In this document: in pieces, positions 2,828 to 20,582 of the stretch
How positions within the stretch are numbered: the first letter of the stretch is position 1
Layout: each line of letters starts with the position of its first letter
Assembly (NCBI RefSeq): GCF_000717875.1
Contig: NZ_JOCT01000045.1
Location: 1 to 30,906 of the forward strand
From: Streptomyces sp. NRRL S-455
Lineage (GTDB): Bacteria > Actinomycetota > Actinomycetes > Streptomycetales > Streptomycetaceae
Length of the DNA stretch: 30,906 nucleotides
Reading direction: 5' to 3'
Translations under genes and position numbers: made by a program
Notes under the pieces: generated by a model
Databases searched by the model: none
What the model saw: only the letters and a program-made list of their open reading frames with translations
Told to the model about the DNA's origin: nothing

Positions 2828-4681
2828 TCAGCCCAGTTTCGTCACGTCGCGCACGGCGCCCTTGTCGGCGCTGGTCGCCATCGCGGCGTAGGCGCGCAGG
2901 GCGGCGGAGACCTTGCGGTCGCGGTTCTTCGGGGCGTAGACGCCGTTCAGCGCCTGCTCGCGGCGGGCCAGTTCGGCGTCGTCGACGAGGAGCTCGATGG
3001 AGCGGTTGGGGATGTCGATGCGGATGCGGTCGCCGTCCTCGACGAGGGCGATGGTGCCGCCGCCGGCCGCCTCGGGCGAGGCGTGCCCGATGGAGAGGCC
3101 GGAGGTGCCGCCGGAGAAGCGGCCGTCGGTGATCAGGGCGCAGGTCTTGCCGAGGCCGCGGCCCTTCAGGTACGAGGTCGGGTAGAGCATCTCCTGCATG
3201 CCGGGGCCGCCCTTGGGGCCCTCGTAGCGGATGACGACGACGTCGCCCTCCTTGATCTGCTTCAGCAGGATCTTCTCGACGGCCTCCTCCTGGGACTCGC
3301 AGACGACCGCCGGGCCCTCGAAGGTCCAGATCGACTCGTCGACGCCGGCTGTCTTCACGACGCAGCCGTCGACCGCGAGGTTGCCCTTGAGGACGGCGAG
3401 GCCGCCGTCCTTGGAGTAGGCGTGCTCGACGGAGCGGATGCAGCCGCCCTCGGCGTCCTCGTCGAGGGCCTCCCAGCGCTCGGACTGGGAGAAGGCCTCG
3501 GCGGAGCGGACGCAGCCGGGGGCCGCGTGCCACAGTTCGACCGCCTTGGCGGACGGGGAGCCGCCGCGCACGTCCCAGGTCTTCAGCCAGTCGGCGAGGG
3601 ACGGGCTGTGGACCGCGTGCACGTCCTCGTTGAGCAAGCCGGCGCGGTGCAGTTCGCCGAGGAGGGCGGGGATGCCGCCGGCGCGGTGCACGTCCTCCAT
3701 GTAGTACGTGCGGTCCTTGGCGACGTTCGGGGCCACCTTGGCCAGGCAGGGGACGCGGCGGGAGACCGTGTCGATCTCGGCGAGGCCGAAGGGGACGCCC
3801 GCCTCCTGGGCCGCGGCCAGCAGGTGCAGGATCGTGTTGGTCGAGCCGCCCATCGCGATGTCCAGGGCCATCGCGTTCTCGAAGGCCGCGAAGGTGGCGA
3901 CGGAGCGGGGCAGGACCGTCTCGTCGTCCTCCTCGTAGTAGCGGCGGGTGATGTCCATGACCGTGTTGGCCGCGTCGACGTAGAGCTGCTTGCGCGCGGT
4001 GTGGGTGGCCAGGACCGAGCCGTTGCCGGGGAGGGAGAGGCCGATGGCCTCGGTGAGGCAGTTCATCGAGTTGGCGGTGAACATGCCGGAACAGGAGCCG
4101 CAGGTCGGGCAGGCGTTCTCCTCGATGCGGAGGATGTCCTCGTCCGAGATCTTGTCGTTCACGGCGTCGGAGATCGCGTCGACCAGGTCGAGCGTGCGGA
4201 CCGTGCCGTCGACCAGGGTGGCGCGGCCGGACTCCATCGGGCCGCCGGAGACGAACACCGTCGGGATGTTCAGGCGCAGGGCCGCGTTGAGCATGCCCGG
4301 GGTGATCTTGTCGCAGTTGGAGATGCAGATCAGGGCGTCGGCGCAGTGGGCCTCGACCATGTACTCGACCGAGTCCGCGATCAGGTCGCGGGAGGGCAGG
4401 GAGTACAGCATGCCGCCGTGGCCCATGGCGATGCCGTCGTCCACCGCGATGGTGTTGAACTCGCGCGGGATGCCGCCGGCCTCGACGATCGCCTCGCTGA
4501 CGATCCGGCCGACCGGCTGCAGGTGGGTGTGGCCCGGCACGAACTCGGTGAAGCTGTTGGCGACCGCGATGATCGGCTTGCGGCCGATGTCCGCACCCGG
4601 TACACCGGAGGCGCGCATAAGGGCGCGGGCGCCCGCCATGTTGCGGCCGTGGGTGACTGTGCGGGACCTCAGCTCGGGCAT
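2828..4681 (-). CDS. ilvD: Dihydroxy-acid dehydratase
   Basis: IlvD removes water from 2,3-dihydroxy-isovalerate or -methylvalerate, giving the keto acids for valine and isoleucine (and then leucine and pantothenate). The 617-residue length fits the IlvD/Edd family. Visible signatures are CDKITPGM and [19 protein letters not shown], which carry iron-sulfur cluster ligands, plus the C-terminal GRFSGGTSG and [11 protein letters not shown] segments. The ATG at 4681 has AAGGAGCG about 8 nt upstream. The gene stands alone rather than in an ilv operon. An imperfect inverted repeat (4707-4731) lies in its leader, but I see no attenuator peptide rich in branched-chain codons. Confidence 0.97.
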
Positions 4682-4706
4682 CGTCGCTCGCTCCTTCAGA
4701 GACTGC

Positions 4707-4731
4707 GTCAGAGTTTTCGGAGATTTCTGAC
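4707..4731. promoter_or_regulatory. Inverted repeat in the ilvD upstream region
   Basis: GTCAGA (4707-4712) and TCTGAC (4726-4731) are perfect inverted copies about 25 nt before the ilvD start. This could be an operator or leader hairpin. No regulator is assigned; the neighbouring TetR protein is one untested candidate. Confidence 0.25.
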
Positions 4732-4822
4732 TGCTACCGAGCGTACGCCGGTCATCCAGTGGGCGGGACGGTGCGTCCGGAATGCGGGACGCGTGTCTCG
4801 GCCGACGGCCGTCTCCGGCGGT

Positions 4823-5551
4823 TCAGGGTCCGGTGAGGTGGCGCTGTACGACCGGTGCCAGCCGCGCGACGATCTGCTCCGGGTCGGCCGAGGCCAGTGG
4901 CTCCACCTTGATGACGTACCGCAGCAGCGCCGTGCCCACGAGCTGGGCGGCGGCCAGCTCGGCCCGCAGTTCGGCGTCCGGCAGGTCGAGGCGGTCGGCG
5001 ATCCGGCGCAGCACCTGCGTGGCGACGATCCTCCGGAAGACGGCGGCGGCCGTCTCGTTGGTGACGGCGGAGCGGACGATGGCGAGCAGGGGCGCGCGGG
5101 TCGCCGGGTTGTCCCAGACGCCGAAGAAGAAGCGGACCAGGCGCTCCCCCACGCCGTCGAGGGGGCCCTCCTCGATGGCCTTCGGTGCCTCGATGGCGGG
5201 CGCGAAGGACTGGGTGATCGCCGCCTCGAAGACCTGCTCCTTGGTGCCGAAGTAGTGGTGCACGAGTGCCGAGTCGACCCCGGCCGTCTTGGCGATGCCG
5301 CGTACGGAGGTCTTCTCGTAGCCGCGCTCGGAGAACTCCTCGCGGGCGGCGGTCAGGATGCGGTCGCGGGTGTCGGCCGACTCGGCACGCGGGGGGCGGC
5401 CCCGGCGACGGGCGGCGGCGCTGGGGCCGGTACCGGGGGCGCTGCCGGAGCCGGAGCCGCTGCCGGTGCGGGGGCCGCTGCCGGGGCCAGGGGCGCTGCC
5501 GGGGCCGGGGGCGCTGCCGGCCGTGGGGCCGCCTGGGGGCAGGTCGCTCAT
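4823..5551 (-). CDS. TetR-family regulator with Gly/Ser/Pro-rich N-terminal tail
   Basis: A 242-residue TetR-type repressor. Residues 1-45 are a low-complexity tail of SAPGPG and SG repeats, encoded by 18-bp tandem repeats near 5490-5525. A basic patch RRRGRPPR follows, then the TetR helix-turn-helix at about 79-102 ([21 protein letters not shown]). The C-terminal half is the ligand/dimer domain typical of large TetR proteins. Its ATG overlaps the TGA of the upstream sugar isomerase-like gene by 4 nt, so the two are translationally coupled. The tail is longer than in most TetR proteins. The ligand is unknown, and no adjacent efflux gene suggests one. Confidence 0.9.
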
Positions 5552-6372
5552 CGCCTCGGTACCTTCTGCGCCGAGGCCAGGTGGAGGCGGGTGAAGGCCA
5601 GCGCCTCCGCCAGGTCGGCCTCTCGCTCGGCGCTCGACATGGCGCGGCGGGTGTTGACCTCGATGACGACGTGCCCGTCGAAGCCGGTCAGGGCGAGCCG
5701 GTCCAGCACCTCGGCGCAGGGCTGGGTGCCGCGGCCGGGGACCAGGTGCTCGTCCTTGGCCGATCCCCTGCCGTCGGCGAGGTGGACGTGGCCGAGGCGG
5801 TCTCCCATGCGGTCGACCATGTCGAGGGCGTCGGCGCGAGCCGTGGCGGTGTGACTGAGGTCGATCGTGAAGTGGCGGTAGTCGTCGTTCGTCACGTCCC
5901 AGTCGGGGGCGTAGGCGAGCATCTCGCGGTCGCGGTAGCGCCAGGGATACATGTTCTCGACGGCGAACCGTACGTCCGTCTCGTTGGCCATGCGCCAGAT
6001 GCCGGTGACGAAGTCCCTGGCGTACTGGCGCTGCCAGCGGAACGGGGGGTGGACCACGACCGTGCTCGCGCCGAGCTTCTCGGCCGCCGCACGGGCCCGC
6101 TGGAGCTTGGTCCAGGGGTCGGTGGACCAGACGCGCTGCGTGATGAGCAGGCAGGGGGCGTGCACGGCCAGGACCGGGATCTGGTGGTAGTCGCTGAGTC
6201 TGCGCAGGGCCTCGATGTCCTGGCTGACGGGGTCCGTCCAGACCATGACCTCGACCCCGTCGTAGCCGAGGCGCGCGGCGATCTCGAAGGCCGTGGCCGT
6301 CGACTCCGGGTAGACCGAGGCCGTCGAGAGTGCGACCTTCGCGTCCGGGATCTTCACGGCTGGCTCTGCCAT
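5548..6372 (-). CDS. Sugar phosphate isomerase/epimerase-like TIM-barrel protein
   Basis: A 274-residue member of the xylose-isomerase-like TIM-barrel family (AP endonuclease family 2 fold). Supporting motifs are [13 protein letters not shown] near the N terminus, VVVHPPF and FAVENMYPW in the middle, and [16 protein letters not shown] and HVVIEVNTR toward the C terminus; the His and Glu residues are the usual divalent-metal ligands. The start at 6372 gives [17 protein letters not shown], the first conserved strand; longer frames lack coding character. No ribosome site is visible, but TAATCT ends 7 nt before the ATG, suggesting a leaderless mRNA. It is followed by and coupled to a TetR gene. 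The substrate cannot be told from sequence; an endonuclease IV-like role is less likely. Confidence 0.87.
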
Positions 6373-6379
6373 GCAGGAC

Positions 6380-6385
6380 AGATTA
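6380..6385 (-). promoter_or_regulatory. -10 box for a leaderless start (isomerase-like gene)
   Basis: TAATCT on the minus strand lies 7 nt before the ATG at 6372. That spacing would put the transcription start at or next to the start codon. No clear -35 is seen. Confidence 0.5.
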
Positions 6386-6453
6386 CGGGGTGTGGTGGGG
6401 AGGGAGTGGGGGGCCTGTTGGCCGATGTGGTGTTCGCCACGGGCGGGTACGGT

Positions 6454-6479
6454 CGTTCCGCGTCGCTGGAAGCGGAACG
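6454..6479. terminator. Hairpin after the Ppx/GppA gene
   Basis: CGTTCCGC (6454-6461) pairs perfectly with GCGGAACG (6472-6479) around a 10-nt loop, directly downstream of the phosphatase stop codon. Confidence 0.55.
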
Positions 6480-7412
6480 CTACGCGGACTCCATGTGATC
6501 CAGCCGACGCAGGATCACGCCCTCCCGCAGCGCCCACGGGCAGATCTCCAGGCGTTCCACGCCGAACAGGTCCATGGCGGCCTCCGCCACCAGGGCACCG
6601 GCCAGCAGCTGGCCCGCCCTGCCCTCCGAGACGCCGGGCAGCTCGGCTCGTTCCGCTTCCGTCATGCCGGCCAGCCTCGGGACCCAGCCTTCCAGGGACT
6701 CCCGTTTGAGCTCGCGCTGGACGTAGAGGCCCTCCGCGGAGCGGGCCGCGCCGGCGATGCGGGCCAGTTGCTTGAAGGTCTTGGACGTGGCGACGACGTG
6801 GTCGGGGGTGCCGAGGCGGCTGAACTCGCCGACCGTGCGGGCGATCTCGGTCCGCACGTGGCGGCGCAGGGCGCGAACGTCCTTCGGGTCGGGCGGGTCA
6901 CCGGGGAGCCAGCCGGCGGTGAGGCGACCGGCGCCCAGCGGCAGGGAGGCGGCCGCGTCGGGTTCCTCGTCTATGCCGTAGGCGATCTCCAGGGAGCCGC
7001 CGCCGATGTCCACGACCAGCAGCTTTCCGGCCGACCAGCCGAACCAGCGGCGGGCGGCGAGGAAGGTGAGCCGGGCCTCCTCCTCGCCGGTGAGGACCTG
7101 GAGCTCGACGCCGGTCTCGGTGCGCACGCGTGCGAGGACGTCGTCGGCGTTGCGGGCCTCCCGTACGGCGGAGGTCGCGAACGGCAGCACTTCCTCGACG
7201 CCCTTGTCCTCGGCGGCCTGGAGCGCCTCGTGGACGACCGAGATCAGCCGGTCGACGCCGCCGTTGCCGATCGCTCCGCTGTCGTCGAGGAGCTGGGCGA
7301 GGCGCAGCTCCGCCTTGTGCGAGTGCGCGGGCAGCGGGCACGCTCCGGGGTGCGCGTCCACCACCAGAAGGTGCACCGTGTTCGATCCCACGTCGAGGAC
7401 ACCGAGTCTCAT
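6480..7412 (-). CDS. Ppx/GppA-family phosphatase
   Basis: A 310-residue member of the exopolyphosphatase / pppGpp phosphatase family (ASKHA fold). The phosphate-1 motif is [16 protein letters not shown] (about 4-19) and the phosphate-2 motif is [25 protein letters not shown] is also characteristic. The length matches the short actinobacterial type that lacks the C-terminal HD-like domain of E. coli Ppx. Whether polyphosphate or pppGpp is the substrate cannot be told. The start at 7412 begins exactly at the conserved motif, and TAGCGT ends 7 nt upstream, so the mRNA is probably leaderless. It diverges from the cysteine-rich gene at 7484 across 71 bp. Confidence 0.93.
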
Positions 7413-7477: not shown

Positions 7478-7483
7478 GGACTC

Positions 7484-8284
7484 GTGCCAAAGACGAAAAA
7501 GGCGAAGCGCGACAAATCCCCGGGCGTCGTTGAATCCGACGAGAAGGGTCTCGACTTCGCTCGGGCGTGGGTGGAGTTTCCCGATCCGGCGGACGACGAG
7601 CAGGTCTTCCGTTGCGATCTGACATGGCTGACCTCTCGCTGGAACTGCATCTTCGGCAGCGGCTGCCAGGGCATCCAGGCCGGCCGCGCTGACGACGGGT
7701 GCTGCACGTTGGGTGCCCACTTCTCCGACGAGGACGACGAGAAGCGGGTGGCCGAGCATGTGGCGAGGCTCACGCCGGACATCTGGCAGCACCACGCCGA
7801 GGGCACGCGGAACGGCTGGGTCTCCGAGGACGAGGACGGCGACCGGCAGACGCGTCCCTTCCAGGGCTCCTGCATCTTCCAGAACCGGCCCGGATTCCCG
7901 GGCGGCATGGGCTGCTCGCTGCACATCCTCGCCCTGAAAGAGGGCCGCGAGCCGCTGGAGACCAAGCCGGACGTGTGCTGGCAGCTGCCGGTGCGGCGGA
8001 CGTACGAGTGGATCGACCGGCCCGATGACACCCGGGTGCTGCAGGTGTCGATCGGCGAGTACGACCGGCGCGGCTGGGGGCCGGGCGGCCACGACCTGCA
8101 CTGGTGGTGCACCTCGGCGACCTCGGCACACGGCGCGGGTGAGCCGGTGTACGTCTCCTATCGGCCGGAGCTGATCGAGCTGATGGGCAAGGCCGGCTAC
8201 GACCGGCTGGTCGAGCTGTGCGAGGAGCGGCTGGCCTCGCAGCTGCCGTTGCTGGCGCCGCATCCGGCGGATCCGGCCGGCTGA
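7484..8284 (+). CDS. Conserved cysteine-rich hypothetical protein, possible metal-binding
   Basis: This 266-residue protein begins with a lysine-rich tail ([10 protein letters not shown]). It has nine Cys: 44, 55, 61, 73, 74, 130, 144, 165 and 209. The spacing (WNC-x5-C, then CC, GSC, GC, DVC) resembles proteins that hold an Fe-S cluster or zinc, such as the loosely related YkgJ/DUF3109 families; that link is inference. A highly acidic patch (SDEDDEK, SEDEDGD) lies between the clusters. No signal peptide or membrane span is seen. The GTG at 7484 lacks a ribosome site and fits a leaderless start. It ends 12 nt from the convergent BACON-domain gene with no obvious terminator. I cannot assign a function. 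Confidence 0.85.
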
Positions 8285-8296
8285 CACGCCGACCGT

Positions 8297-10012
8297 CTAC
8301 GACGTGGCCGGGCTCGGGTCGTCGCCGTCCGGGGGCGGTGGCGCCGAGTCCGCCGGGTCGGTCGGGTCGCTCGGGGCCGGGTCCGTGGGTGTGGGGTCCG
8401 GGTCGGGTGACGCGGGCGGGGTGGTCGGGTCCGGGGCGGAGGGCGTGGGCGTCGGCTCGGGCTGCGACGAGGGCGGGTCGCTCGGGACTGTGGGGCGCGG
8501 GTCCGGGCGAGGGCCGGGGCCGGAGGGGCTGGGCGCGGTTCCGTAGCCCTCGATGTGGACCACTGCTCCGACGGGAGAGACCGCCACTCGTGCGCGCCAG
8601 GGACCCGACGGCTCGCGCAGATGATCGACGTACACCTTGATCGTCAACGACTCGCCGGGCCGGAGTGTCCCCGAGGTCCGGCTGAGGTAGAGCCAGTCGG
8701 CTCCCGTGGCGGCGGACCAGCGGACCGGGGCCGAGCCCGTGGCGGTGAGGGTGACGAGGGTGGTGTCACCCCTGTTTCCGGCCGTGACCTCCAGGCGAGC
8801 GGCGCCCTTGCCGGCCCCTGCGACGCCGAGGACTTCCACGGAGACGTCGGCCTTTCCGTCCTTGCCGAAGCGGGGGCCGGGTCTGGTGCTCGCGTTGCCG
8901 GCGTTCTCGTAGCCGCCGCCCGCCACCTCGCCGTCCAGGCCGAGCGGGTCGTCGGCCTCGCGCGCGGAGGCGGTGCGGCCGTCCTGGCCCTCGCCCACGG
9001 GGGTGCCCCGGTAGGCGGCCCACAGGGCGAGCACGGGAGCGGCGACGACGGTGGCGACGACGGTCGTGGTGATGGCACGCGCGCGCAGGCGGTCCCGCCG
9101 GGCGGCGCGGTCCTTGGGGTCCATCGGGAAGCCGCGCCGGTCGAAGCGGGGTGCGGCGCCACGCGCGCGTGACGGGTGGGCCATGGCGACGTGAACGGCC
9201 GCGCGGGGGGCCGGCAGGACGGGCAGCGCGGCGGGAGTGACGCTGGTGCCGGGCCAGCGGCCCGGGATGGCGCGCTCGGCGGTGCGGCGGCAGCGCGGGC
9301 AGTCGTCGACGTGCCGGACCAGTTCGCGACGCAGGGCGGTGCCGAGGACGAGCCGGTCGTCCCCCACGAGGTGGGCGACGCTCGGGCACGCTCCGGTCTC
9401 GACCACGGCGAGGGCCGCACGGGTGCGTTCGACCTCGCAGGCGGCGGAGGCGAGCAGGTCGCGGGCGGCGGCCAGGTCCATGCCGAGGACGGCCGCGACC
9501 TCGTGGGCGGCTAGGTGGTGGCGCACGGCCAGTTCGAGCGCCTCGCGCTGCTCCGGCGTGGTGCCGGCCGCCTCCGGCCAGGCCAGCAGGGCCAGTTCGT
9601 CCCGCCGCCGCTCCTGGACCTCCTCGGAGACGGCGGGGGCGGCCGGCCGTTCGGCGCGCTGCGTGCGGCCCGCGGCGTGGCTGCTCGTACGTTTCTGCTT
9701 GGCCTCGGCCAGCTTGCGCAGGCACGCCCAGCGGGCCAGGGCGTACAGCCAGGCCCTGCGGTCGGCGGGGGCGTCGGGGACGTGCCGGCCGCGGCGTTCG
9801 GCCAGCGCGAGGGCGTCGCCCAGGGCGGCGGTCGCGGCGTCGTGGTCGCACAGCACGGACAGGCAGTAGGTGAACAGGCCGTCCAGGTAGGGCTCGTAGC
9901 GCGTGGGCGGCCGCTGGACCAGCGTGCGTGCCGCCCCGTGGTCACGCGCTTCCCGGTGCGCCCGGTGCGCGCCGGCCGTGCGGGTCGAGATCTCCGGAGT
10001 ACTGCTCATCAT
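8297..10012 (-). CDS. Sigma-like / anti-sigma-like / membrane / BACON-domain fusion protein
   Basis: One 571-residue chain joins parts that are normally separate. Residues about 38-105 resemble ECF sigma region 2 (RAWLYALARWACLRKL aligns with the usual RAWLYRIARN segment), and 150-202 resemble region 4 (TPEQREALELAVRHHLAAHE then a helix-turn-helix-like part). HVDDCPRC (234-241) is an H-x3-C-x2-C motif like zinc anti-sigma domains. One membrane span follows (about 313-333). The outer part has a BACON-like Ig domain (about 390-490; ADWLYLSRTSGTLRPGESLTIKV) and a Pro-rich tail rich in Ser, Asp and Thr (493-571). The acidic DLVQ-like core of region 2 is missing, so it may not drive transcription. 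TACGGT lies 6 nt before the ATG, suggesting a leaderless start. Confidence 0.88.
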   Translation of the reverse strand: MMSSTPEISTRTAGAHRAHREARDHGAARTLVQRPPTRYEPYLDGLFTYCLSVLCDHDAATAALGDALALAERRGRHVPDAPADRRAWLYALARWACLRKLAEAKQKRTSSHAAGRTQRAERPAAPAVSEEVQERRRDELALLAWPEAAGTTPEQREALELAVRHHLAAHEVAAVLGMDLAAARDLLASAACEVERTRAALAVVETGACPSVAHLVGDDRLVLGTALRRELVRHVDDCPRCRRTAERAIPGRWPGTSVTPAALPVLPAPRAAVHVAMAHPSRARGAAPRFDRRGFPMDPKDRAARRDRLRARAITTTVVATVVAAPVLALWAAYRGTPVGEGQDGRTASAREADDPLGLDGEVAGGGYENAGNASTRPGPRFGKDGKADVSVEVLGVAGAGKGAARLEVTAGNRGDTTLVTLTATGSAPVRWSAATGADWLYLSRTSGTLRPGESLTIKVYVDHLREPSGPWRARVAVSPVGAVVHIEGYGTAPSPSGPGPRPDPRPTVPSDPPSSQPEPTPTPSAPDPTTPPASPDPDPTPTDPAPSDPTDPADSAPPPPDGDDPSPATS

Positions 10013-10024: not shown

Positions 10025-10194
10025 GGGGGCCGGGAGTGGCAGCTTCAGGCGGCTTGAGCGTATTTAATCCGTACGGGTGAAACGATCCCTCAATAGGGGA
10101 CAGGAATCAGTGGTTCCGCCGCTGGCGCGGGGTGGCGGGGCCTGGCGCGCAGGTGGCCGCACCAGGCGGTCCCCGCGATGTCAGTGGCGGCGGC

Positions 10195-17201: not shown

Positions 17202-17741
17202 ATGGCGCAGGGCGAGGTGCTCGAGTTCGAGGAGTACGTCCGCACCCGGCAGGACGCGCTGCTGCGCAGCGCCCGCCGCCTGGTCCCGGACCCGACCGAC
17301 GCGCAGGACCTGCTGCAGACCGCGCTGGTCCGGACGTACGGCCGCTGGGAGACGATCGAGGACAAGCGGCTGGCGGACGCCTATCTGCGCCGGGTGATGA
17401 TCAATACGCGGACGGAGTGGTGGCGGGCCCGCAAGCTGGAGGAGGTGCCGACCGAGCAGCTCCCGGACGCCTCGGTCGACGACGCCACCGAGCAGCACGC
17501 GGACCGCGCCCTGCTGATGGACATCCTGAAGGTGCTCGCCCCGAAGCAGCGCAGTGTCGTGGTGCTGCGACACTGGGAGCAGATGTCCACGGAGGAGACG
17601 GCCGCCGCCCTCGGCATGTCGGCCGGAACGGTCAAGAGCACGCTGCACCGGGCGCTCGCCCGGCTCCGCGAGGAGCTGGAGTCCCGCGATCTCGACGCAC
17701 GCGCGCTGGAGCGTGAGGAGCGGGAGCGGTGCGCGGCCTGA
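17202..17741 (+). CDS. sigE: ECF RNA polymerase sigma factor SigE
   Basis: SigE directs the cell-envelope stress regulon in Streptomyces. The 179-residue protein has sigma region 2 (LEFEEYVRTRQDALLRSARRL to AYLRRVMINTRTEWWR) and region 4 (LAPKQRSVVVLRHWEQMSTEETAAALGMSAGTVKSTLHRAL), and it matches the SigE sequence as I remember it from S. coelicolor. The ATG at 17202 has GGGAGG 8 nt upstream. cseA begins 13 nt before the sigE stop, so the two are coupled. SigE has no cognate anti-sigma factor; its level is set by the CseB/CseC two-component system encoded downstream. In S. coelicolor most transcripts end soon after sigE; no strong hairpin is obvious here. Confidence 0.97.
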   Translation: MAQGEVLEFEEYVRTRQDALLRSARRLVPDPTDAQDLLQTALVRTYGRWETIEDKRLADAYLRRVMINTRTEWWRARKLEEVPTEQLPDASVDDATEQHADRALLMDILKVLAPKQRSVVVLRHWEQMSTEETAAALGMSAGTVKSTLHRALARLREELESRDLDARALEREERERCAA

Positions 17742-18382
17742 CCGGCGGTGGTTCTGCGGGACCCCGGGGCAGTATCCAGGCGGTGAGTGCGGCAGGGGCC
17801 GTGCTCGCCGCCCTCGCCCTTTTGGCGTCCGGGTGCGGTGCGGGCGGCACCGGCGCCCGTGACGAGGGCCCGGCGCACGCCGACTCGGTGGCGGGCGCCG
17901 CCGCCACCCCCTCCACCGCGCCGTCGAAGACGCCCGACACCGTGAACGCGGTCAGGCTCGTCAAGGACGACCCGAAGGTGTCGCCGGAGGTGAAGCGCGA
18001 GCTGAAGCCGTGCGTGGCCGACGAGTACCCCGTCGACGTGTCGTACGGCAACCTGACCGGAGGTTCGGCCGAAGACGTCGTCGTCAATGTGCTGACCTGC
18101 GGTGACGCGGTCGGCGTCGGCAGTTACGTCTACCACGAGCAGGACGGCTCGTACACGAACGTGTTCAAGGCCGAGGAGCCCCCGGTCTACGCGGAGATCG
18201 ACCGCGGCGACCTGGTGGTGACCAAGCAGGTGTACGACAAGGGCGACCCGGTGTCGAGCCCGTCCGGCGAGAACGTGATCACGTACCGATGGGTCTCCGG
18301 CCGCTTCGCGGAGAAGTACCGCACGCACAACGACTACGGGAAGGTCACCGGCGACAGCGCGACGCCGGTGCCCGCGGGCTGA
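17729..18382 (+). CDS. cseA: Lipoprotein CseA, modulator of the SigE system
   Basis: CseA is a lipoprotein on the outer face of the membrane that dampens sigE expression. The 217-residue protein has a signal sequence with the lipobox LLASGC (lipidated Cys36), a low-complexity Ala/Thr/Ser/Pro spacer (about 40-70), and a soluble domain with two more Cys (KPCVAD, LTCGDA) that could bond. The GTG at 17729 overlaps the end of sigE and is preceded by GGAGCGGGAG. A later GTG at 17783 would also retain the signal sequence. It is the second gene of sigE-cseA-cseB-cseC; the position and lipobox make the assignment firm. Confidence 0.92.
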   Translation: MRGLTGGGSAGPRGSIQAVSAAGAVLAALALLASGCGAGGTGARDEGPAHADSVAGAAATPSTAPSKTPDTVNAVRLVKDDPKVSPEVKRELKPCVADEYPVDVSYGNLTGGSAEDVVVNVLTCGDAVGVGSYVYHEQDGSYTNVFKAEEPPVYAEIDRGDLVVTKQVYDKGDPVSSPSGENVITYRWVSGRFAEKYRTHNDYGKVTGDSATPVPAG

Positions 18383-18511
18383 CGCGGGGCGGACGGCCGC
18401 GTGAACCGATCGGGCCATTCGGACCGATGCACCGGTGAACGCGGCGCACGAACCGTGCGTCCCAGCAGAGAGAACACACCCCACGGACCACGAAGGACTG
18501 AGAGCACCGGG

Positions 18512-19213
18512 ATGGCAGATCAGACCCACGTCCTGTTCGTCGAGGACGACGACGTCATCCGCGAGGCCACGCAGCTCGCCCTGGAACGGGACGGCTTCGC
18601 GGTGACCGCCATGCCCGACGGACTGTCGGGCCTGGAGGCGTTCCGGGCGGACCGCCCCGACATCGCGCTGCTGGACGTCATGGTGCCGGGCCTGGACGGC
18701 GTCAGCCTCTGCCGCCGGATCCGGGACGAGTCGACCGTGCCGGTCATCATGCTGTCGGCACGGGCCGACTCCATCGACGTCGTCCTGGGCCTGGAGGCGG
18801 GCGCCGACGACTATGTGACGAAGCCGTTCGACGGTGCCGTGCTGGTCGCCCGGATCCGCGCGGTGCTGCGCCGGTTCGGGCACGCCGGGGGCGGCCGGGC
18901 CGGGGAGCAGGAATCCCCGGCGGACGGCGGAGTGCTGACCTTCGGGGACCTGGAGGTCGACACCGAGGGGATGGAGGTGCACAGGGCCGGGCGGCCGGTG
19001 GCGCTGACGCCGACCGAGATGCGGCTGCTGCTGGAGTTCTCCTCGGCGCCGGGCACGGTGCTCTCCCGCGACAAGCTGCTGGAGCGGGTGTGGGACTACG
19101 GCTGGGGTGGGGACACCCGGGTCGTCGACGTGCACGTGCAGCGGCTGCGGCAGAAGATCGGCCAGGACCGGATCGAGACGGTCCGCGGTTTCGGCTACAA
19201 GTTGAAGGCCTGA
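18512..19213 (+). CDS. cseB: Response regulator CseB
   Basis: CseB is an OmpR/PhoB-type regulator which, when phosphorylated by CseC, activates the sigE promoter. The 233-residue protein has a receiver domain with the acidic pair Asp12-Asp13, phosphoacceptor Asp55 (LLDVMVPG), and Lys104 in YVTKPF. Its C-terminal winged-helix domain (about 140-233) ends in VVDVHVQRLRQKIG and TVRGFGYKL. The ATG at 18512 is preceded by AAGGA at a long spacing. A 129-nt gap follows cseA and holds a small hairpin, CGCACG-AAC-CGTGCG (18445-18459), possibly an attenuator or processing site. cseC starts 7 nt after the stop. Confidence 0.96.
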   Translation: MADQTHVLFVEDDDVIREATQLALERDGFAVTAMPDGLSGLEAFRADRPDIALLDVMVPGLDGVSLCRRIRDESTVPVIMLSARADSIDVVLGLEAGADDYVTKPFDGAVLVARIRAVLRRFGHAGGGRAGEQESPADGGVLTFGDLEVDTEGMEVHRAGRPVALTPTEMRLLLEFSSAPGTVLSRDKLLERVWDYGWGGDTRVVDVHVQRLRQKIGQDRIETVRGFGYKLKA

Positions 19214-19220
19214 GCGGGGT

Positions 19221-20582
19221 ATGAGGGGGCATTTCCGGCGCCTGGTCGCCACGGGCCTGGAGCGGGCGGGGATCCGTACGGGCCTCAGATGGAAGCTGAG
19301 CGCGGCCATCGCCCTGGTCGGCGCGCTGGTGGCGGTCGCCCTGAGCCTCGTGGTGCACAACGCGGCGCGGGTGTCGATGCTGGACAACGCGCGCGACCTC
19401 GCCGACGAGCGCATCATGATCGCCCAGCGCAACTTCGAGCTGTCCGGGCGGGTGAACTTCCCCAACACCAAGATCGACGACCCGGACCTGCCGGAGGCGC
19501 TGCGGGAGCGGGTCGAGGCGGGCCGGCGGGCGACCTATGTGGCGGACCGGCCAGGTGACGTACCGGACATATGGGCCGCCGTGCCGTTGAAGAACGGGCA
19601 CGTGATGTCCCAGCACTCCGGTTTCACCGACCGCAGCTCGGACATCCTGCAGGACCTCGACCAGGCCCTGTTCATCGGGTCGATCGCGGTCGTCCTCGGG
19701 GGCAGCGCGCTCGGGGTGCTCATCGGCGGACATCTCTCGCGGCGGCTGCGCAAGGCGGCCGTCGCGGCCGGCCAGCTCGCGGGCGGCGAGACGGACGTCC
19801 GGGTGCGGGACGCCATGGGCGGGGTCGTGCGGGACGAGACCGACGACCTGGCGAGCGCGGTGGACGCCATGGCGGACGCGCTGCGGCAGCGCATCGAGGC
19901 CGAGCGGCGGGTCACCGCCGACATCGCGCACGAGCTGCGCACGCCGGTGACCGGGCTGCTGACCGCCGCCGAACTGCTGCCGCCCGGTCGGCCGACCGAG
20001 CTGGTGCTGGACCGGGCGAAGGCCATGCGCACGCTGGTGGAGGACGTGCTGGAGGTGGCCCGGCTGGACGGAGCCTCGGAGCGGGCGGAGCTGCAGGACA
20101 TCATGCTGGGCGAGTTCGTCGCCCGGCGGGTGGCGGCCAAGGGGCCGGACATCAAGGTACGGATCGTGCACGAGTCGGAGGTGACCACCGACCCGCGCCG
20201 GCTGGAGCGGGTGCTGTTCAACCTGCTCGCCAACGCGGCACGGCACGGCAAGCCGCCCATCGAGGTCACCGTGGAGGGCAGGGTCATCCGCGTCCGCGAC
20301 CACGGCCCCGGCTTCCCCGAGGACCTGCTCGCCGAGGGGCCGAGCCGCTTCCGCACCGGCAGCAAGGACCGGGCCGGCCACGGCCACGGCCTCGGCCTGA
20401 CCATTGCCGCCGGTCAGGCCCGGGTGCTGGGCGCCCGGCTGACCTTCCGCAACGTCCGCACGCCGGGTGCGCCGGAGGGCGTTCCGGCCGAGGGCGCGGT
20501 GGCGGTGCTGTGGCTGCCGGAACACGCGCCGACGAACACGGGGAGCTACCCGGTGCTGCCGGGGCCGAGGCCGGGGGCGTAG
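19221..20582 (+). CDS. cseC: Sensor histidine kinase CseC
   Basis: CseC senses envelope stress, such as cell-wall antibiotics, and phosphorylates CseB. The 453-residue protein has two membrane spans (about 24-46 and 149-172) around a roughly 100-residue extracytoplasmic sensor, then HAMP, HisKA with DIAHELRTP (His237), the N-box NLLANAARHG, the G1 box DHGPGF and the G2 box GHGHGLGLTI. All catalytic boxes are intact. The tail after LPEHAPTNTGSYPVLPGP is short and Pro/Gly-rich. It is the last gene of the operon. The frame stays open for 59 codons after the stop, which I take as chance in GC-rich DNA. A hairpin at 20767-20793 ends the unit. Confidence 0.96.
   Translation: MRGHFRRLVATGLERAGIRTGLRWKLSAAIALVGALVAVALSLVVHNAARVSMLDNARDLADERIMIAQRNFELSGRVNFPNTKIDDPDLPEALRERVEAGRRATYVADRPGDVPDIWAAVPLKNGHVMSQHSGFTDRSSDILQDLDQALFIGSIAVVLGGSALGVLIGGHLSRRLRKAAVAAGQLAGGETDVRVRDAMGGVVRDETDDLASAVDAMADALRQRIEAERRVTADIAHELRTPVTGLLTAAELLPPGRPTELVLDRAKAMRTLVEDVLEVARLDGASERAELQDIMLGEFVARRVAAKGPDIKVRIVHESEVTTDPRRLERVLFNLLANAARHGKPPIEVTVEGRVIRVRDHGPGFPEDLLAEGPSRFRTGSKDRAGHGHGLGLTIAAGQARVLGARLTFRNVRTPGAPEGVPAEGAVAVLWLPEHAPTNTGSYPVLPGPRPGA

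Follow-up and report, generated by a model that had tools for sequence, protein, structure and literature searches.

The gene on the minus strand at 8297..10012 of the window (the whole stretch of 30,906 nucleotides that was analysed, from Streptomyces sp. NRRL S-455) raises the question of whether a protein built like a sigma factor tied to its own anti-sigma domain still works as a sigma factor. That sigma, anti-sigma, membrane and BACON parts lie in one chain had been proposed from the letters alone, and this observation is confirmed. The parts are as follows.

8297..10012, minus strand: whole gene, encoding a 571-amino-acid candidate pseudo-sigma / zinc anti-sigma / membrane / BACON protein (open reading frame sequence; family matches)
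9698..9901, minus strand: sigma region 2-like domain, residues 38-105
9401..9598, minus strand: sigma region 4-like domain, residues 139-204
9263..9400, minus strand: zinc anti-sigma-type domain, residues 205-250, C209-x24-H234-x3-C238-x2-C241 (invariant ligands)
9125..9145, minus strand: juxtamembrane FDRRGFP motif, residues 290-296 (conservation)
9008..9076, minus strand: single membrane span, residues 313-335 (hydropathy peak, flanking charge)
8540..8845, minus strand: BACON domain, residues 390-491, predicted to be extracellular (Pfam BACON_2)
8300..8539, minus strand: Pro/Asp/Thr-rich low-complexity tail, residues 492-571 (sequence; pLDDT)
10059..10092, minus strand: 34-base conserved block in the intergenic region from which radA diverges (80/80 loci)

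This anatomy, together with descent from fusions of ECF sigma factors with anti-sigma domains, is hardly in doubt. The original prediction was staked on a sigma fold in residues 38-202, and structure-model and profile comparisons find both the sigma 2 and the sigma 4 fold in the protein, the sigma-fold portion overall covering residues ~34-202 of the 571. The structure-model matches and the profile-profile alignment speak against a chance resemblance or an absent sigma fold, and this reading is rejected. Aligned as profiles, the Streptomycetaceae set and the relatives from outside the family match with probability 100 and E 1.8e-42 across sigma 2, sigma 4, the zinc motif and the juxtamembrane GFP motif. 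In the full-length model the closed arrangement of sigma 2 and sigma 4 fits anti-sigma-bound chains (3.4 A to 5uxx_A). A second model, of residues 30-250, gives 8.3 A and does not reproduce the closed arrangement, so that a zinc clamp is left without structural support; every Foldseek match of this model has E >0.001. The best hit of a single-sequence search of solved structures reaches no better than E 0.043. PhyR rows stand level with ordinary sigma rows in the fold searches, which are thus uninformative on function, and the zinc domain does not appear as a separate match in these listings, which sigma rows filled. Helices are predicted in the zinc domain at 210-216, 225-237 and 239-248, for comparison with the three-helix fold of RsiW, ChrR and RslA.

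A zinc anti-sigma domain is defined in PMC4598750 by HxxxCxxC and a fourth Cys or His ligand, the pattern found here in C209, H234, C238 and C241. All four are invariant in 134/134 rows of an alignment made of P0001 and the 133 distinct frames among 140 (5 tandem copies included) and in 77/77 aligned rows of another set; 24 residues separate C from H in the 38/38 outside relatives checked. The Pfam zf-HC2 model stays below its cut-off in the window protein (E 0.55, 10.8 vs 22.2 bits). Towards the membrane, G294 is found in 134/134 rows and P296 in 133/134, and both are invariant in 77 rows, 38 of them outside relatives. The GFP motif just inside the span is common to Streptomycetaceae and outside relatives; a hinge or a protease site is a possible role for it. 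The hydropathy peak begins at 313-314, with a net charge of +5 on the N-terminal side of the span and 0 on the C-terminal side; with BACON lying beyond, these charges suggest a cytoplasmic sigma-like half and an extracellular BACON domain. BACON_2 is above cut-off in the window protein (31.6 vs 25 bits) and, with an E limit of 0.01, matches 55/56 members from Streptomycetaceae. The tail (492-571) has a predicted pLDDT mostly <50. Among the listed homologues NCBI mostly names the protein after BACON or as 'hypothetical', which hides the sigma-like half; some members are named 'sigma-70 family' or 'sigma24' by NCBI and JGI.

The origin of the chain is visible in other Actinomycetota. Of 198 genomes sampled across the phylum, 21 have matches, and 13 of these belong to other genera. 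The proteins extracted from 10 of the 13 consist of an ECF-like sigma with the same zinc motif after it; G025, G054 and G055 were dropped as generic ECFs or low-complexity matches. Eleven fused outside proteins were extracted and nine scanned with Pfam (L094 and L095 were left out), and Sigma70_r2 is above cut-off in 9/9. BACON_2 is above cut-off in L093 and L096 and matches L097 at 0.015. HYDIN-type Ig-like matches below cut-off are present in L091 and L097 (E 0.0015 and 3.2e-5), a Pro-rich tail with no BACON match is present in L089, L090, L092 and L108, and L098 runs off its contig. When the outside relatives were used as the query, all 120 listed rows carried PF04542 and about 22 PF19190, counted by eye, the named rows being Ilumatobacteraceae and other actinomycete MAGs. 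The order in the intact relatives is sigma, zinc domain, span, Thr/Pro-rich stretch and a BACON or Ig-like domain. These proteins (L096, L091, L093, L097; P0121-P0240) thus resemble the window protein in the CHCC motif, the span and the Thr/Pro-rich stretch, and some of them in a BACON or Ig-like end, but differ from the Streptomycetaceae protein in having an intact Sigma70_r2 and, in 8 regions, no RadA or DisA nearby.

The BACON domain had been regarded as an unusual extra, and this part of the original prediction does not hold. The domain is shared with intact ECF relatives in other Actinomycetota, and ECF52 has a carbohydrate-binding module in that place. Because some intact relatives end in a BACON or Ig-like domain, BACON is no odd local addition, and this candidate explanation is rejected.

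All 56 Streptomycetaceae rows form one clade in a 114-row tree (98/97), with the nearest outside rows L108, L090 and L092 weakly placed (87/73). The stem leading to the orthologues is long (branches of 0.74 and 1.2 changes per column, in a part of the tree where long branches meet). A long stem and a single clade are what a change of role followed by constraint would be expected to leave. Judged by these alignments, the ancestors of the family were actinobacterial ECF sigma factors with a fused zinc anti-sigma domain.

The Streptomycetaceae branch departs from its relatives in the signatures by which a sigma factor is recognised. Pfam Sigma70_r2 (PF04542) has no match in the window protein, and the gene is not among the 48 matches of this model in the genome. 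The model is found in 1/56 Streptomycetaceae members, at E 0.0072, and none of the 120 listed close homologues carries it, counted by eye. With the E limit set at 10, Sigma70_r4_2 has no match in the window protein; at a limit of 0.01 it is found in 16/56 members (best 3.7e-7), and the NCBIfam sigma model PRK12513 in 44/56 (best 7e-8).

We take the acid-Gln-acid residues of region 2.2 to be the contact with the beta' coiled coil. That region 2.2 makes this contact is stated in PMC4598750. The corresponding motif, [DE]62+[QH]65+[DE]66, is present in 0/52 Streptomycetaceae orthologues vs 47/47 outside relatives, a non-independent sample collected via mutual similarity, and the doubt first raised over the acidic core of region 2 is thereby borne out. 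The motif is found in 1/4 tandem copies and in 6/11 other ECFs of this genome, which were chosen for similarity to the family profile. These eleven have an acid at 62 in 11/11 and Q65 in 8/11, hence Q65 is not universal, and some of the five off the exact motif have S or A replacing Q. Because 5/11 depart from it, loss of the motif is no proof of lost RNA polymerase binding. The orthologues themselves retain an acid at 62 in 10/52 and at 66 in 36/52.

The recognition helix of region 4 has a mean net charge of -0.77 in the 52 orthologues vs +1.77 in the 47 outside relatives, +3.45 in the 11 own ECFs and +2.25 in the tandem copies, and is net positive in 7/56 Streptomycetaceae rows, tandem copies counted. 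In a control of 30 sigma loci from the same genome the helix was measurable in 25, after five loci had been dropped, and net negative in 0/25; principal-type sigmas align poorly in this control, and for that reason only its recognition-helix part is used. Other residues of the sigma-like half are constant: W88 and R94, in the region 2-like part, are kept in 77/77 aligned rows, and W145-P146, specific to Streptomycetaceae, is present in 39/39 of their rows. As far as sequences can tell, the loss in region 2.2 and in the recognition helix, conserved across Streptomycetaceae, is the new part of these results, the architecture class being known already. The protein is probably not a normal promoter-binding sigma.

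The loss is not accompanied by decay. Median dN/dS is 0.204 in the sigma 2-like domain, 0.106 in the sigma 4-like domain, 0.253 in the zinc part and 0.043 in the span, and 0.379 in BACON, 0.487 in the tail, 0.582 in the linker and 0.705 in the stalk (300 random pairs from 80 close orthologues; Nei-Gojobori, approximate). By these low ratios, purifying selection acts strongly on the sigma-like domains.

Several known systems combine the same parts. ECF52 SCO4117 of Streptomyces coelicolor is described as having a sigma part, a zinc finger, a span, a proline-rich part and an outside carbohydrate-binding part (PMC5826349), the same domain order as in the window protein. For SCO4117 a TIGR02937 sigma domain is reported together with a smart00776 module, whereas the window protein has lost the sigma signatures and carries BACON. 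No Pfam match to a carbohydrate-binding module of the smart00776 type is found in the window protein, where BACON_2 matches. We presume that smart00776 is an NPCBM-type domain; a search of this genome for ECF52 with NPCBM (PF08305) gave none. ECF48 and ECF53 are predicted to have a fused zinc anti-sigma domain and one or two membrane helices, like the window protein, and membrane proteolysis that frees the sigma part is proposed for ECF48, ECF52 and ECF53 (PMC8999054). The architecture class is therefore known already, from ECF52 with a carbohydrate-binding module and, as a prediction, from ECF48 and ECF53. IutY of Pseudomonas putida (ECF243) likewise joins a sigma and a membrane anti-sigma in one chain; it is freed by proteolysis and its sigma is active, according to PMC8999054. 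The precedent for sigma mimicry is PhyR, the anti-anti-sigma factor of Alphaproteobacteria, which binds NepR (PMC4598750). PhyR has a receiver domain, of which Pfam finds no match in the window protein, and in its place the window protein has the zinc motif, the span and BACON. In pairs of ECF and anti-sigma factors, helix 1 of the anti-sigma is reported to bind sigma 4 and helix 4 to bind sigma 2 (PMC7406223). No paper on this Streptomycetaceae protein was found by title and abstract start in the mainly non-subscription literature on BACON, pseudo-sigma and fused anti-sigma factors.

The explanation that we tentatively prefer is a membrane-anchored pseudo-sigma that acts through sigma mimicry instead of serving RNA polymerase as a subunit. 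Its ancestor, a membrane sensor with an ECF sigma and a zinc anti-sigma domain in one piece, would have kept its fold, zinc motif, span and BACON domain, and in Streptomycetaceae the sigma part would have lost the residues presumed to bind core RNA polymerase (region 2.2) and those presumed to bind promoter DNA (the region 4 recognition helix). The zinc domain might clamp the sigma-like domain within the same chain, and the clamp might be opened by a cell-wall or surface signal read by BACON, or by proteolysis. Once exposed, the sigma-like domain would bind another protein, with an anti-sigma factor as the likeliest candidate, in the way PhyR binds NepR; since the core- and DNA-binding signatures are gone, it would act through such binding. 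An inner half without the usual working residues probably relays the outside signal as a lookalike. Mimicry of the PhyR-NepR kind by this domain is suggested by analogy and is possible. A more specific form is doubtful, in which a receptor would hold a decoy sigma under its own zinc clamp and, when an envelope signal arrives, offer it to an anti-sigma factor in trans, thereby freeing a separate, real sigma. If true, such a transmembrane mimic would be a one-molecule partner switch across the membrane, fixed family-wide beside disA, the c-di-AMP synthase gene.

The main rival to the pseudo-sigma, which we consider rather unlikely, is a one-component ECF sigma that has diverged and still works; the zinc domain would keep it inactive until an outside signal leads to membrane proteolysis and the freed sigma directs RNA polymerase. 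A mechanism of this kind is proposed for SCO4117, with its identical domain order (PMC5826349), and for ECF48/52/53 (PMC8999054). The outside relatives have intact signatures, W88 and R94 are kept throughout, and Sigma70_r4_2 and PRK12513 still match 16 and 44 of the 56 members. The acid that persists at residue 66, less often at 62, the seven rows with a net positive recognition helix and the basic helix of the RadA-side tandem copies also speak against a pseudo-sigma. What weighs against a working sigma is the absence of the region 2.2 motif from all 52 orthologues and a negative mean helix charge, which none of the 25 measurable control helices of the same genome shows. Loss of sigma signatures with the fold and the zinc ligands kept would also suit a permanently closed plug, with BACON and the Pro-rich tail as the working part, for example as a wall-binding anchor. 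This is improbable, since constraint is tighter inside than outside (dN/dS 0.106-0.253 in the sigma-like and zinc parts vs 0.379 in BACON and 0.487 in the tail) and residues fixed specifically in the family, such as W145-P146, would hardly be needed by a passive plug. Least of all do we expect a redox sensor in which the zinc CHCC together with C50 and C97 switches the cytoplasmic half as in RsrA, for which there is precedent (PMC4598750), with the membrane part secondary. These two cysteines of the sigma 2-like domain are kept in 132/134 and 131/134 rows, where outside relatives have A (37/38) and V (38/38); zinc, however, is described as structural in most zinc anti-sigma domains (PMC4598750).

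Either outcome tests directly what makes a sigma factor, and does so in readily manipulated strains. A pseudo-sigma would be a new type of membrane receptor in ECF signalling and a further case of natural sigma mimicry besides PhyR. If the protein is still a sigma, an ECF can work without the hallmark core-binding motif.

The gene is near-universal in Streptomycetaceae, the main antibiotic producers. Residues 38-345 are matched in 99/101 genomes and 17/17 genera of a family set (f1, equated with Streptomycetaceae via named homologues); the two genomes without a match are G230 and G265. The gene is divergent from RadA in 78/80 close loci, the other two (L057, L066) having no RadA match within the DNA examined, and RadA is found in 20/20 diverse family loci (L153-L172). 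Neither RadA nor DisA matches in any of the 8 outside-relative regions, where the positive control L158 worked, and radA-disA are accordingly rejected as ancestral neighbours.

In six of the 20 diverse loci (L153-L158) there are two tandem copies each, both with the zinc motif, the span and a BACON-like end, judged by eye; the pair in L153 lies at 3562-6928. Identity to P0241 assigns L158 to Yinghuangia seranimata, and L159, also a Yinghuangia locus, has one copy; L153-L155 and L157 are probably Embleya, going by their best named homologues. The RadA-side copy forms a separate branch, sister to all others, in a tree with four such copies. These four keep the basic recognition helix that the other copy has lost, so the two copies may have split roles.

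The far side of radA-disA-mutY holds the sigE-cseA-cseB-cseC envelope-stress operon (window 17202-20579), in which NCBIfam models for the SigE family, CseB and CseC are above cut-off and cseA is assigned by position only. RadA, DisA and MutY are present in 14/14 other regions and the linkage to sigE-cseABC is kept on that side in only 4/14, for which reason a functional link to this operon was set aside. The convergent neighbour (window 7481-8284) encodes 267 amino acids with a Cys-rich stretch and has no NCBIfam match at 1e-5; a match to it adjoins the gene in 72/80 close loci, as found with a query translated in the wrong frame.

The 34-base block upstream of the gene has 0-6 mismatches in 80/80 close orthologue loci of genome contigs, and its 24-base core, with up to 3 mismatches allowed, occurs at a single place in the genome. 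The block is not tied to any known operator, and a consensus promoter scan found none. A similar CACCCGAAAGGGTTAA-like core lies near the gene start in L163 and L164, with 13 mismatches overall, which is close to background. Another ECF of the same genome (L112, L182; G000:C26:104215-105114, minus strand), in which no span was noticed by eye, combines a sigma 2 that looks intact (DDVVQET) with a zinc HxxxCxxC motif in the same chain.
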